Source of the DNA: a virus
DNA length: 44,509 nt
IMG/VR virus record: IMGVR_UViG_3300043673_000057
Coordinates: 1-44,509 of that record
Strand: one strand, 5' to 3'
The notes under the pieces were generated by a model. That model saw only the letters and a program-made list of their open reading frames with translations, made no database searches and had not been told where the DNA came from. Shown piece after piece: positions 39,280 to 43,959 of the stretch. A program made the translations under genes and the position numbers. How positions within the stretch are numbered: position 1 is the first letter of the stretch; the number at the start of each line of letters is the position of its first letter.

Positions 39280-40353
39280 TCAGGGAGAAGACGCCCGTTG
39301 CCGCAATTCGAAATAAACCTCATGATTCACCACCGCCTGGCGATGCTTGCGCAGCCGGTTTGCGTACTTCGTCAACCCCGCCCGCGTCGCGTTCTTGTCG
39401 TCGGTCTCGAGCAGCAGCGTGGCGTGTCCGCCGTCCTCGCGATAGTCCATCAGCGCCAGGCTCTCGAAGCAATCCTTCCAGTCCTGCGCCCCCGCCCGCA
39501 GCCCGCGCCGTCCATGCGTGCCCAGGTTCAGATCGGTCTGGTACAGGTCGCCCTTCAGCGGTGCCAGGATCCGGTGCAGCTTGATCCGCCATTCGATCAG
39601 CCCGGGGAGTGCCTGCGTTTCGGCGATCTCTCGCACTTCGTCGGCAGTTCCGCCAAACGAAGTTTCACCCCCTTTGAAAAAGGGGGTAGGGGGATTTGTA
39701 CTTGTTTTATGTTTTGTGTCTTGTGTCTTGTCTATAAGGGGCTCCTCCTGGTGAGACAGATCTGTCTCAAAACCACCCTCTATTTGCGACAGATCTGTCG
39801 CATCCGCCGCGACACAAATTTTTTTCCCCACAGAGACAGCATCGGCAACAGACTGTCTCACTGTGAGACAGTTAGCAGCCTTCCTCTCGAACACCTCGGC
39901 TAACGTGTTCTCCCGCGCGGGCGTTGACGGTAGCTCGGTTTGTGGCGCAATCCATCTGTCTCGCTGTGAGACAGTTGACGAATCGCCTTCTACTCCCTTC
40001 CCCCTACCCCCTACCCCCTGCTTTATCCTCTCCTGCACCAGCGCCTTCACGTTGGCCAGCGCCCAACTGGACACGGTTTTTGCCTTCGCGCCCTTGGTCT
40101 CGATCACCAGGCCCTCGGCGACGAGCACCTTCATGCTGCGCGCCACGGTGTCTTTGCCCATGCGCGCGACCGCGGCGATCTCGCGCAGGCTCAGCCGCAC
40201 CTCGGTGCCGTAGCAGTAGCGGCACATGGCGCTGTACACACTGATCCCGTTCTGCCCCAGCGCCTCGCCGAACACGTCGTAGATCTCGTTATCCATCCAC
40301 AGGTGCCCAGGCTCACGCCGGTCCCGGAGCTTACACTTCGTTCCATCGCTCAT
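39280..40353 (-). CDS. Replication-initiator-like winged-HTH protein
   Basis: 357 residues. Residues 20-90 form a winged helix-turn-helix (VRLSLREIAAVARMGKDTVA then RSMKVLVAEGLVIETKG), as in phage replication initiators and plasmid Rep proteins. Residues 105-235 are a low-complexity linker read through a heptad element (111-122), four GAGACAG palindromes (124-203) and a PPTPFFKGG palindrome (221-229). The C-terminal domain (residues 240-350) includes WRIKLHRILAPLKGDLYQTD and may load helicase. Phage origins often lie within such genes. Confidence 0.7.
   Translation of the reverse strand: MSDGTKCKLRDRREPGHLWMDNEIYDVFGEALGQNGISVYSAMCRYCYGTEVRLSLREIAAVARMGKDTVARSMKVLVAEGLVIETKGAKAKTVSSWALANVKALVQERIKQGVGGRGKGVEGDSSTVSQRDRWIAPQTELPSTPARENTLAEVFERKAANCLTVRQSVADAVSVGKKICVAADATDLSQIEGGFETDLSHQEEPLIDKTQDTKHKTSTNPPTPFFKGGETSFGGTADEVREIAETQALPGLIEWRIKLHRILAPLKGDLYQTDLNLGTHGRRGLRAGAQDWKDCFESLALMDYREDGGHATLLLETDDKNATRAGLTKYANRLRKHRQAVVNHEVYFELRQRASSP
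39664..39700 (+). repeat. Palindromic PFFKGG-type element in frame
   Basis: CCCCCTTTGAAAAAGGGGG forms a hairpin with a small loop, followed by TAGGGGGATTT. Read on the minus strand it encodes NPPTPFFKGG. Elements encoding this peptide are widespread in cyanobacterial and proteobacterial genomes, also as in-frame inserts. Confidence 0.75.
39752..39974. other. Palindrome cluster, candidate replication origin
   Basis: Four palindromes built from GAGACAG/CTGTCTC: TGAGACAGA-TCTGTCTCA (39752-39769), the GCGACAG variant (39785-39802), ACTGTCTCAC-T-GTGAGACAGT arms (39852-39872) and a one-mismatch copy (39956-39974), plus a half site at 39833-39839. The first two are 33 bases apart centre to centre. 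AT-rich tracts (39695-39740 and the T7 run at 39819) adjoin. Location inside the initiator gene resembles lambda-type origins. Confidence 0.65.
39986..40021 (-). repeat. Heptad G4 element, copy 19
   Basis: Four heptads on minus inside the initiator frame, encoding KQGVGGRGKGVEG (residues 111-123), next to the palindrome cluster. Confidence 0.9.
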
Positions 40354-40512
40354 TTAGCTCTCACCCTTCAGCCCAAAATCGAAGCCGCCCTGACCTTTGG
40401 GCGGCTCAACCGTAAACGTCGCGCGCTTGCCGCACGCCTCGCACACCGGCGTACCCTGATCCCGCGACACATTCCTCTTCCCGCACCCACACGTCCACCA
40501 CACCGGTTTCAT
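40354..40512 (-). CDS. Small zinc-ribbon protein (52 aa)
   Basis: MKPVWWTCGCGKRNVSRDQG then TPVCEACGKRATFTVEPPKG. C8, C10, C24 and C27 form a zinc ribbon. The ATG at 40512 overlaps the ParB-like stop (ATGA) and its TAA abuts the initiator ATG, so it is clearly part of this operon. May assist the initiator or transcription. Confidence 0.8.
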   Translation of the reverse strand: MKPVWWTCGCGKRNVSRDQGTPVCEACGKRATFTVEPPKGQGGFDFGLKGES

Positions 40513-42389
40513 TTCGACTTGCTCTTCTTTTTAGCCGCCGACCATCGCCTATTTATGACCTCAGCGATCCGCTTCCGAGCCTCGGGAGACAGCTTCCTCA
40601 CCGCTGGCTTCTTCGCGGCAGGCTTCGGCGCAACCAGCTTCACCGGAGCGAACGTGAGCGCGATCTTCTCGGCGTCAACCTTGTGTTTCTTCGCCATTGC
40701 CCACAGCTCCGAGCGCGACTCTTTATTCCTGCTCATGTTGTGCTCTCGCACATTGATGGCGTCGATGCTGAGCGCGTCGTAGAGCAGCTGGTGCAGCTGC
40801 GGTTCCGTCGCCTTCGCCGCATAGGCGGCCAGCACCTTCACCGCGTCGCGCCGGATATCCCACTCATCACCCTTGGTCCGGATAGGCAGCTCGATCACCT
40901 GGCAGATCCGCCCTGCCTCGTACTCCGAAATACTTTTCATCGCAATCGTGCGGAGCAGCTCGACGCTGGGTTGCACCTTCGCGCGAATCGCCCGGTAGAT
41001 CGCAACGCGGATCGCCGTCTCGCTCTCCACATACATCTTGCGCTTGGCCGCCTCCGCTGCTTCCTTGGCCTGGTCGCTGCGCGATGAATTGGACGAGCCA
41101 TAACTATGCGGCTTTTGCACCTCATGCTTGTGCACCTTGCACTTCTGGTCTGCGCAGCACCACACCAGCTTGCCTTTGTCGGGACCGTCTACCATCAGCG
41201 CCTTCACCGTGTTTTCGCAGCTTGTCACGCCGTCCTGGGTCGCAGCAACCCACTGGCCTTGCTTCACCGTCTTCCGCGTAACCACCTCGCCGCCGCCGAC
41301 AGCTTCCTCCTCCAGCGGCGCACGGCTGGGCTTCGAAGAGATCTTCAGCAGCCAACCTTTGCCGCCGTCGTGCTTGGCGTTGATCTTCGCGGCCTCCTTG
41401 TGGACCTTCACCGTGGCGTCCTGCTTGGCCGAGAAGCATGCCGGGTCCAGGCACACATCCGCCTCGGCCGTGAGATCTCCGAACAGCGCGGCATTAGATC
41501 CGGAGCGCTTCGGGCAGTCGATACACGCGCCTGCACCCGGAAGGAGCAGGTCGTCATCCAGCCGCCAGGGAACGCTCGCCAGCTTCAGCAGCACGTTGCT
41601 CTCGATCCACCGCTTCAGCTGCGCCTCGGTCGCCTCGACGAGCCGCCGGCCATGGCGCATGTACTTCTGCACCTGCGGATTCGGCATGTTGTAGCTGATT
41701 TTTTCATCCTCGTAACCGTCCTCGTCCTCGTCATCGCCGCCGTCATCATCGTCGAGAATCTTCTCGAGCACTACCTCGGTGATGGGCCGTTTATCATACT
41801 TCGGATCCGAGTCGAGCATGAAGCGAAGCGCCCGATCCTGGTCGTTCGGCGTCAGTCTCGCCAGCAGCAGCGCATGGCCCAGGGTGATGTGGCCCTTGAT
41901 GTAGAGCAGCTTGCAATAGAGCTCGAGCGTCCGCAGGCGAAGCCGCGCGGCCACGTAGCCAGCCGTCTTGCCAACCTTCTTCGCGATGTCCTCAATCGAC
42001 ATATCCAGCTGGTCGGGCCCCATCATCGCGGCGTAGGCGTCGGCCTCTTCGACAGGATGCACATCGGCGCGCTGCAGGTTCTCCACCACCTGCGTCTCCT
42101 TCGCCTCGTCGTCGGTCAGCTCCTTCACGATGCACGGCACCGTGTGCAGGCTCAGCGACTCGGCCGCGCGCAGGCGCCTCTCGCCGGCGACGAGTTCATA
42201 TTGGATCTTGTCCGTCGGCTTGGCCTTCGGACGGCGCCGCACCAGCAGCGGGACCTGGATGCCAAGCTCGCCGATCGACGCCTTGAGCTCCGCCAGCTGG
42301 TCGGCGTCGAAGCTCTTGCGTGGGTTGGTGGTGGAGGGTGCGATCACCCCAAGGCTTATCTGTTCATAACTTCCAGCGGTTTGCGTCAT
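40509..42389 (-). CDS. ParB/Spo0J-like protein
   Basis: 626 residues from the ATG at 42389 (ATGA overlap, GGAG 7 bases upstream); the longer frame upstream is a shadow of other genes. ParB N-domain: NPRKSFDADQLAELKASIGE, VAGERRLRAAESL (residues 68-80), VVENLQRADVHPVEEADAYA, the CTP-binding type motifs; HTH at about 131-155. An acidic stretch (DDDDGGDDEDEDGYEDE) and a Cys domain (CIDCPKRS...CLDPACF) follow, then a basic C-terminus. No ParA gene is present, so it may act in replication or gene control rather than partition. Confidence 0.88.
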   Translation of the reverse strand: MTQTAGSYEQISLGVIAPSTTNPRKSFDADQLAELKASIGELGIQVPLLVRRRPKAKPTDKIQYELVAGERRLRAAESLSLHTVPCIVKELTDDEAKETQVVENLQRADVHPVEEADAYAAMMGPDQLDMSIEDIAKKVGKTAGYVAARLRLRTLELYCKLLYIKGHITLGHALLLARLTPNDQDRALRFMLDSDPKYDKRPITEVVLEKILDDDDGGDDEDEDGYEDEKISYNMPNPQVQKYMRHGRRLVEATEAQLKRWIESNVLLKLASVPWRLDDDLLLPGAGACIDCPKRSGSNAALFGDLTAEADVCLDPACFSAKQDATVKVHKEAAKINAKHDGGKGWLLKISSKPSRAPLEEEAVGGGEVVTRKTVKQGQWVAATQDGVTSCENTVKALMVDGPDKGKLVWCCADQKCKVHKHEVQKPHSYGSSNSSRSDQAKEAAEAAKRKMYVESETAIRVAIYRAIRAKVQPSVELLRTIAMKSISEYEAGRICQVIELPIRTKGDEWDIRRDAVKVLAAYAAKATEPQLHQLLYDALSIDAINVREHNMSRNKESRSELWAMAKKHKVDAEKIALTFAPVKLVAPKPAAKKPAVRKLSPEARKRIAEVINRRWSAAKKKSKSK

Positions 42390-42601
42390 CTCATCGCTCC
42401 AAGTTGTTTCGCCTTCACTCTTGCTCTCACTTCCTCGACCATGTCGCGCGCATCTCCGCCGGCCACTTCCTTGTCGACGGCTAAGGCCACATCCTCGGCC
42501 CGCACCACCAGCACCAGCAGCGCGCCGGAGTTCTTGCGAATCCACTCCGCCGCGCCCTCCAGCGAGTGCAGGCTCGTCAGGTCCCACCCCTTCGCCTTCA
42601 C
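42386..42601 (-). CDS. Small hypothetical protein with GTG start
   Basis: 71 residues (KAKGWDLTSLHSLEGAAEWI then RKNSGALLVLVVRAEDVALA ...). A GTG at 42601 overlaps the upstream TGA (GTGA), and its own stop overlaps the ParB-like ATG. The longer frame upstream is out of phase with the previous gene and rejected. A compact alpha/beta protein, family unknown. Confidence 0.75.
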   Translation of the reverse strand: MKAKGWDLTSLHSLEGAAEWIRKNSGALLVLVVRAEDVALAVDKEVAGGDARDMVEEVRARVKAKQLGAMR

Positions 42602-43437
42602 AGCTTCCCGGTTGCCTGCAACCACAGCTTCGGCCCGTCGACCGAGGTGCGGACCTTGAAGCCGCCCTTCCTCGCCTTGACCCGGCACGCCTTCTCCACA
42701 ATCTTCACCACGTCGAAGGACTCCAGCTCGACCATCAGCGCCTTGCCTTCCTCGAACGCCTGGAACATCTGGTCATAGACAGCCTGGAAGGGGCTGACCC
42801 TTCCGTGTCTCGACGCGGGGAACCGCTTCGTCTCTACCGTTGCCATCACAACCTCCTCAGGTTTGCGCTTCGTCTTCTTCATGCCCATCGCTGCTTCCAA
42901 CTTCGTCTTGGCATACGGCCCGCGGGGCCCGCGCGGTTTCTTTACATTCGCGGCCTTGCGCTCTTTCTGCGTGCGCGGGAGCAGTGGAGCGGGTTGCCTG
43001 CCCTTCAAACCACGCTTCAGATTCTCCGGATCGAGCGAAGCCTTGATCGCCCAGTCCGACACCGCCGCCGTCTCCTCCACCACGCGGTCCGCGTCCGCAA
43101 TCGCAATAGTCCTGCACTCGCCCGATCCGCAGCCTACTTCCGCCTCGAACATCTCCGCGCCCAACCCGCTGCGCATCTTCTCCACACTCAGAGCCTGCCC
43201 GCACACCTCGCCGCGCCCGCACGACAGGCACAGCGCCGTCTCTCCGCACATCCCCTTCGCCGGGCACCAGTGCCCAAGCAGCCTGCATCCCGCACACGCC
43301 GTCCCCGCCGCCGGACGGTCACCCTCATCGAACCCAAACACCAACACCAGCACCTCGCAGTCGACGACCACGCCCAGCTCCGCCCTCCATCGCCACAACT
43401 GCATCTCCTCCTCCTCCGCGTTGAGGTCGAGACTCAC
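42598..43437 (-). CDS. Cys-rich protein with basic linker
   Basis: 279 residues from a GTG at 43437 (GTGA overlap). An acidic N-terminus (NAEEEEMQLWRWRAELGVVV), a Cys-rich region (about residues 48-80: CAGCRLLGHWCPAKGMCGET, CLSCGRGEVCG), a very basic linker (KKPRGPRGPYAKTK) and a C-terminal domain. An internal Met at 42846 follows a perfect AGGAGG with 5-base spacing and could make an 82-residue second product containing only the last domain. Family unknown; likely zinc- and nucleic-acid-binding. Confidence 0.65.
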   Translation of the reverse strand: MSLDLNAEEEEMQLWRWRAELGVVVDCEVLVLVFGFDEGDRPAAGTACAGCRLLGHWCPAKGMCGETALCLSCGRGEVCGQALSVEKMRSGLGAEMFEAEVGCGSGECRTIAIADADRVVEETAAVSDWAIKASLDPENLKRGLKGRQPAPLLPRTQKERKAANVKKPRGPRGPYAKTKLEAAMGMKKTKRKPEEVVMATVETKRFPASRHGRVSPFQAVYDQMFQAFEEGKALMVELESFDVVKIVEKACRVKARKGGFKVRTSVDGPKLWLQATGKL

Positions 43438-43889
43438 GCCGCCTGCTCTCTGGCTTCGAAGCAGGTCGCCTTCTCTTCCCTCTTCCCTACACCCTCTTCC
43501 CTGTTCTTCTTGGGCCCACGCCTACGCGCCACCAGGTTGCGGACGCGCTCCCGCACCTCTCTCGGAGTGTTCGCCGCACGAGGCAGAAACAAATCCGCCA
43601 GCAGCATGACGGGATACTCCTGAACCACACGGCTGGTGATCATCGTGGACAGTCCGGGATGCAGACGCTTCGCCCGCCGCACCACCTCGTTGCTGTCCAT
43701 GTCCGAGACGTGCAGATCGCACACCATCGCGTCGACGGTGCCAGGTGCCATCTCGGCGAGTAGCCGCAGCGCCCGCGCCCCCGAGCGCGCCTCCACCACG
43801 CGATAGCCCCAGATCTCCAGCAGAAACCGGCGTACGCTCAACTCTTGCTCGTTGCCATCGACACACAACACTACCTTCCTCGGACGCAT
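43434..43889 (-). CDS. Receiver-domain (response-regulator-like) protein
   Basis: 151 residues from the ATG at 43889 (GGAG, 6-base spacer), preferred over a GTG at 43901. A CheY-like receiver domain fills residues 5-120: D11 (LCVDGN), phosphoacceptor D58 (AMVCDLHVSDMD), T85/S86 (TMITS). The usual acid pair is reduced to one Asp and the conserved Lys before Pro is missing (DLFLPRAAN), so phosphorylation may be weak or absent. The tail REEGVGKREEKA is read from heptad element 20. No output domain. Rare in phages; may bind host kinases or regulators. Confidence 0.78.
   Translation of the reverse strand: MRPRKVVLCVDGNEQELSVRRFLLEIWGYRVVEARSGARALRLLAEMAPGTVDAMVCDLHVSDMDSNEVVRRAKRLHPGLSTMITSRVVQEYPVMLLADLFLPRAANTPREVRERVRNLVARRRGPKKNREEGVGKREEKATCFEAREQAA
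43469..43504 (-). repeat. Heptad G4 element, copy 20
   Basis: Four heptads on minus inside the receiver-protein frame, encoding its charged C-terminal tail. Confidence 0.9.
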
Positions 43890-43959
43890 AAAATTCTCCA
43901 CTCAGCCCATCGGCTGCTTTGTTGGTGCTTGGTCTGTTCGCTGGTCTCCTCCTGTCCTT

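Follow-up and report, generated by a model that had tools for sequence, protein, structure and literature searches.

The 44,509-base virus record analyzed here (the window, meaning the whole stretch of DNA) carries a gene for a predicted replication initiator, P0001, and this gene contains an array of short palindromic sites. The array is very probably the replication origin of a temperate phage: an intragenic iteron origin of the lambda type, lying within the gene for the initiator that would bind it. We favor this reading because the gene matches replication-initiator families, because tandem copies of the same site in unrelated phages fall in replication-initiator genes, because close relatives retain the same site layout, and because the order of site array, A-rich stretch, and inverted repeat is that of oriLambda. 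A candidate origin inside the initiator gene had been proposed in the initial annotation, and the family matches, the layout in relatives, and the oriLambda-like order give it computational support. The gene and its sites are as follows.

39280 to 40353, minus strand: initiator gene P0001, 357 amino acids, with an N-terminal winged helix, a long site-bearing linker, and a C-terminal domain without a family match.
40117 to 40155, minus strand: recognition helix, residues 67 to 79 (KDTVARSMKVLVA).
39956 to 39974: iteron 1, converging dyad GTCTC-N5-GAGAC (CTGTCTCGCTGTGAGACAG), read as TVSQRD.
39852 to 39872: iteron 2, converging dyad GTCTC-N5-GAGAC (ACTGTCTCACTGTGAGACAGT), read as CLTVRQ.
39833 to 39839: lone half-site GAGACAG/CTGTCTC, 32 bp from iteron 2.
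39809 to 39813: half-site GTCGC (coding strand), overlooked in the initial annotation.
39785 to 39802: diverging dyad GCGAC-AGATCT-GTCGC (N6; TGCGACAGATCTGTCGCA), with half-site GCGACAG.
39752 to 39769: diverging dyad GAGAC-AGATCT-GTCTC (N6; TGAGACAGATCTGTCTCA), 33 bp from the GCGAC-AGATCT-GTCGC dyad.

The four palindromes and the lone half-site reported earlier are present in the linker, and they fall into two arrangements as described, the AGATCT-centered palindromes being diverging N6 dyads and the others converging N5 dyads. The half-site GAGACAG, previously assigned to the whole set, holds for three palindromes and the lone half-site; the palindrome at 39785 to 39802 has GCGACAG. The array in the window mixes GTCTC and GTCGC half-sites, and its 222 bp hold 7 of the 11 GAGACAG copies in the window. 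For comparison, 1,000 codon shuffles were generated in which protein and codon usage were preserved. GTCTC-N5-GAGAC occurred twice in the real gene, against a shuffled mean of 0.015 and a maximum of 1, and GAGACAG occurred seven times (mean, 1.2; maximum, 5). Palindrome centers with arms of at least 7 numbered 12, whereas the shuffles gave a mean of 0.9 and a maximum of 7.

A nearly identical 15-bp core is translated in different frames within the gene, as TVSQRD at 39956 to 39974 and CLTVRQ at 39852 to 39872; thus, judging from these translations, selection is on the DNA rather than on the peptide. The same core was found in all three frames (38, 23, and 87) among 46 non-redundant genes of other phages, and in L162, L171, and L215 it lies beside, not within, an open frame. 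Selection on the DNA had been proposed before from the low complexity of the encoded linker; that argument is weak, and it is the differing frames that sustain the claim.

P0001 residues 12 to 107 weakly matched PHROG 678, "replication initiation O-like" (E value, 2.9e-5), and a weak match to PHROG 270, "replication initiation protein," was also obtained (E value, 6.6e-4); neither HTH_36 (PF13730) nor Phage_rep_O matched the protein. An AlphaFold2 model of the N-domain is a winged helix (mean predicted local distance difference test score [pLDDT], 71), which together with the PHROG 678 match bears out the winged helix-turn-helix gene named in the initial annotation. V70 and R72 of the recognition helix are invariant across the 12-member family. 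The single-sequence model of the C-terminal domain was unusably poor (pLDDT, 48). Single-sequence scans of viral contigs, phages, and species genomes returned no direct relatives of P0001, and its family was recovered solely via the DNA pattern and alignments.

Viral contigs were scanned for two GTCTC-N5-GAGAC dyads 4 to 34 bp apart, with reversed arms as the control. Tandem sites were found in 116 stretches, compared with 8 for the reversed arms. With a winged-helix profile, 78 of 118 tandem loci (the 116 stretches plus re-fetched copies) had the sites inside a matched gene and 4 within 400 bp, versus 0 of 8 controls; the hidden Markov model derives from genes that carry the sites, so the figure of 78 is not a blind one. 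In 96 of the 116 the array fell in an open frame 100 or more amino acids long, and one homology cluster takes in 68 of these frames. Thirty-eight representatives, mainly one per cluster, were chosen for their DNA pattern with chance-looking open frames excluded, and fractions of them describe the winged-helix majority rather than all 116 stretches. PHROG 270 matched 33 of the 38 and HTH_36 matched 25 (E value up to 0.01), and both kinds of match are blind because they use outside libraries. The recognition-helix arginine (xVxR) was invariant in all 38. All 49 helices from genes with the site carry it, as do 15 of 24 from genes that lack the site (P = 1.3e-5), a suggestive link between arginine and site, given that the profile comes from site-bearing genes and the statistic ignores kinship. 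In most other initiators the sites directly follow the winged helix, and inter-site spacings cluster at 21 to 24 bp and at multiples of roughly 11 bp. Many other phages of the broad winged-helix class appear to use GTCTC-N5-GAGAC or a version that differs from it in a single letter. No description of this iteron was found in a literature search that was mainly open access.

No GTCTC dyads occurred in related cultured phages of Vibrio, Acinetobacter, Edwardsiella, Salmonella, Arthrobacter, and E. coli. Related initiators with different recognition helices occur in Vibrio phage VPBES (L273), Edwardsiella phage GF-2 (L279), and E. coli phage mEp013 (L274), whose linkers carry a repeated ENGTLNRP, a repeated NDPKIGIL, and GTGTC-N5-GACAC, respectively. 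These linker repeats are probably other iteron words.

Within the window's own initiator family, which is largely acidobacterial, the half-site letters vary between members and the spacing is constant. N-domain relatives were drawn, with uneven sampling, from viral contigs and from bacterial genomes at the order, family, and phylum levels around Bryocella. Linker sites are GTCTC in L069, L088, and L272; GTCGC in L282, L283, and L284; GTCCC in L267, L268, L308, and L309; GTTTC in L287 and L311; and GTGAC in L306, and GTCTC is paired with GGGAC in L271. Across 28 related genes, N5 separated 23 of the 39 converging GT..C pairs found in linkers and N6 separated 20 of the 25 diverging ones, which corresponds to a 5+5+5+6 = 21-bp lattice. 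The 16-bp core GCGAC-AGATCT-GTCGC is identical in the acidobacterial relatives L282 and L283. We lean slightly toward the view that winged-helix initiators of phages from many hosts share GTCTC-N5-GAGAC in their own genes and that specificity shifts when single half-site bases and the recognition helix change in concert. Helix and half-site combinations that may reflect this are S(R/K)S(T/A)VQRA with GTCCC, VDTVWR and KDSVSR with GTCGC, TV(C/L)RSLEI with GTTTC, and SRATV.R with GTCTC.

In coding sense, the sites are followed on their 3' side by an A-rich tract and then by an inverted repeat:

39694 to 39733: A-rich stretch, candidate unwinding element, 62% A and 7% T on the coding strand.
39711 to 39730, minus strand: three CAARAC repeats, 7 nt apart (39725 to 39730, 39718 to 39723, and 39711 to 39716), inside the A-rich stretch.
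39667 to 39687: GC-rich inverted repeat ACCCCCTTT-TTC-AAAGGGGGT, a hairpin.

An AT-rich stretch beside the sites had been noted initially, and 39694 to 39733 is indeed 70% AT, compared with 40% for the whole gene. Of 45 non-redundant initiators, 42 have an A-rich tract beyond their final site (P = 6e-12), with T unchanged. C-rich/G-rich hairpins resembling 39667 to 39687 occupy the matching position in most family members. CAARAC occurs in 12 of 13 family members (25 copies, versus 2.2 expected from shuffles); as a universal element it was rejected, its enrichment being confined to the window's family and not seen in 44 other initiators.

The closest known parallel in layout is oriLambda (phage lambda, NC_001416; PMC7466680, PMC5043065), which also lies within an initiator gene. 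Its iterons are 15-bp dyads with 5-bp arms and a 5-bp spacer (CCCTC-N5-GAGGG, corresponding to GTCTC-N5-GAGAC in the window); its A-rich tract immediately 3' of the sites is 60% A over 43 nt, compared with 62% A here, and in both cases an inverted repeat stands behind the tract. The lambda iterons bind O dimers, and opening occurs in the adjoining A+T-rich region (PMC5043065). The window differs in its half-site, in its extra diverging N6 dyads, and in its mixture of GTCTC and GTCGC. Phage initiators of PHROG 270, 391, 678, and 1032 and of HTH_36 share with P0001 a winged helix whose recognition helix has a TVxR-type motif, and their tandem-site members carry GTCTC-N5-GAGAC iterons right behind the winged helix; P0001 falls below an HTH_36 match and matches the PHROG families weakly. 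The Paracoccus plasmids pMARC3, pMOS2, and pAES7 have an HTH_36 Rep, and short iteron-like repeats, two direct repeats per origin, were predicted as their origin (PMC3832669), whereas the window has palindromic sites inside the gene. The iteron plasmids P1, F, RK2, and R6K (PMC5043065) likewise have phased initiator sites by an A+T-rich opening region, but the sites in the window are palindromes, expected to bind dimers.

By analogy with lambda, dimers of the winged-helix N-domain would bind GTCTC or GTCGC half-sites via the recognition helix, with the bound dyads on one face of the DNA helix. The bound array would strain the DNA so that the adjacent A-rich stretch opens, and the A-rich strand and CAARAC repeats would be kept single-stranded by the initiator, a host helicase, or a loader. 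The GC-rich hairpin would bound the opened region, and the replicative helicase would then be loaded; the C-terminal domain may contact the helicase or a loader.

Several observations weigh against a lambda-type origin or lend it no support. The array is irregular: the two N5 dyads are 103 bp apart and the two N6 dyads 33 bp apart, so that the site spacings are 103, 32, and 33 bp, compared with 21 to 24 bp in L061, L283, and the non-redundant set and 20 to 24 bp for the four oriLambda iterons. A one-kb GC-skew profile, proposed initially as a check, showed no clean switch at 39.7 kb. L264, the closest N-domain relative, has no perfect site, only a degenerate pair of GGCCC-N5-GGGAC copies separated by 33 bp; the initial annotation had staked its proposal on close relatives keeping the sites, and this holds for the layout in relatives generally but only in degenerate form for the closest one. 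L264 was dropped as a site-less counterexample once these degenerate iterons were found. No helicase or helicase-loader family was recognized among the scanned genes flanking the initiator, where an unrecognized loader is possible, whereas in lambda the P loader gene lies beside O. Homology to lambda O was not detected, with an hhalign probability of 0.85% for the 38-member alignment against lambda O; the claim is therefore that the array would work like oriLambda, a functional likeness, and not that it is a lambda O origin.

In the best-surviving alternative, the array would serve as an operator, at which the winged-helix protein would bind its own gene and block transcription, for autoregulation or copy-number control, with replication starting elsewhere. 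MarR-, GntR-, and Crp-like winged helices in databases are mostly repressors or activators, palindromic operators look similar, and in some other phages single GTCTC-N5-GAGAC palindromes lie far from any initiator. However, the sites lie about 380 to 600 nt into the gene, beyond the DNA-binding domain, the A-rich tract and hairpin are on one side only, and the tandem-carrying proteins match replication-initiation families rather than repressors. We regard a pure operator as unlikely, although operator and origin roles could coexist.

Centromere (parS) sites are likewise palindromes of about this size, and a 730-amino-acid ParB-like protein (ParB_N plus HTH_ParB; 40509 to 42701, minus strand) is encoded directly upstream of the initiator on the same strand; the phage has an integrase as well. 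That the array serves this ParB is nevertheless very improbable: relatives of the protein occur in none of the tandem-site loci, L002, which holds its closest relative (53% identity), has no such palindrome, and the half-site varies across the initiator family. A mobile palindromic repeat (like repetitive extragenic palindromic [REP] or miniature inverted-repeat transposable elements) or chance low-complexity sequence inserted in a tolerant linker is equally hard to credit, for although the hairpin region encodes NPPTPFFKGG, the type of peptide given by translated REP-like repeats, and GGGGGTAGGGGG motifs recur at 2406 and 24991, the sites are short, keep to the N5/N6 spacing, have letters specific to each family, occupy the same linker of divergent initiators rather than being scattered across the window, and were not reproduced by codon shuffles.

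Phage origins are seldom annotated since iterons differ among phages. If the array is the lambda-type origin proposed here, looking for N5/N6 linker dyads followed by an A-rich tract would locate the origins of many temperate phages, a large class, and half-sites could be matched to recognition helices. The specificity of initiators for origins, and how it evolves, would then be directly testable across natural variants, including phages of Acidobacteria. If the helix and half-site pairs hold as well, they would form a readable initiator-origin code from which phage origins and compatibility could be predicted from sequence.

The window encodes an integrase together with large terminase, portal, protease, major head, and tape-measure genes and thus represents a temperate tailed phage. 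A terminase of Bryocella elongata is 57% identical to that of the window, and the initiator family was found in 25 of 398 genomes of the family of this species, versus 4 of 396 sampled from the phylum; therefore, the host is probably an acidobacterium (soil Acidobacteria). Phages L006, L008, and L009 have terminases 57 to 60% identical to that of the window, but their initiator-like winged-helix genes are different ones and lack these sites, as if the replication module had been swapped.

No RNA elements or tRNAs were found in the window. The region from 43434 to 43901 (minus strand) encodes a response-regulator receiver-like domain, at 29.8 bits versus a Pfam cutoff of 30.2. Repeats of GGGGGTAGGGGG and CCCCCTACCCCC occur at 2406, 24991, 39682, and 40000 to 40018; two sets of them flank the iteron array, with inverted arms at 39681 to 39694 and 39999 to 40012, about 300 bp apart. 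In L002, twenty ACGCCGC copies (either strand) lie within 229 bp (971 to 1199), upstream of the relative of the window's ParB.

Elsewhere, GTCTC-N5-GAGAC is scattered singly at distances of hundreds of bases to kilobases, several copies being apparently intergenic, in L131, L085, L093, L118, and L255; L131 (491 to 1462) and L085 (5030 to 9063) belong to one 53-kb phage contig, and L093 and L118 to one 99-kb contig. These single copies may act as operators or stoperators, in which case the word is put to another use. L112 carries three TGTCTCACSGTGAGACA palindromes kilobases apart (3127, 6145, and 12566), one of them inside an open frame resembling a ParB-family gene.
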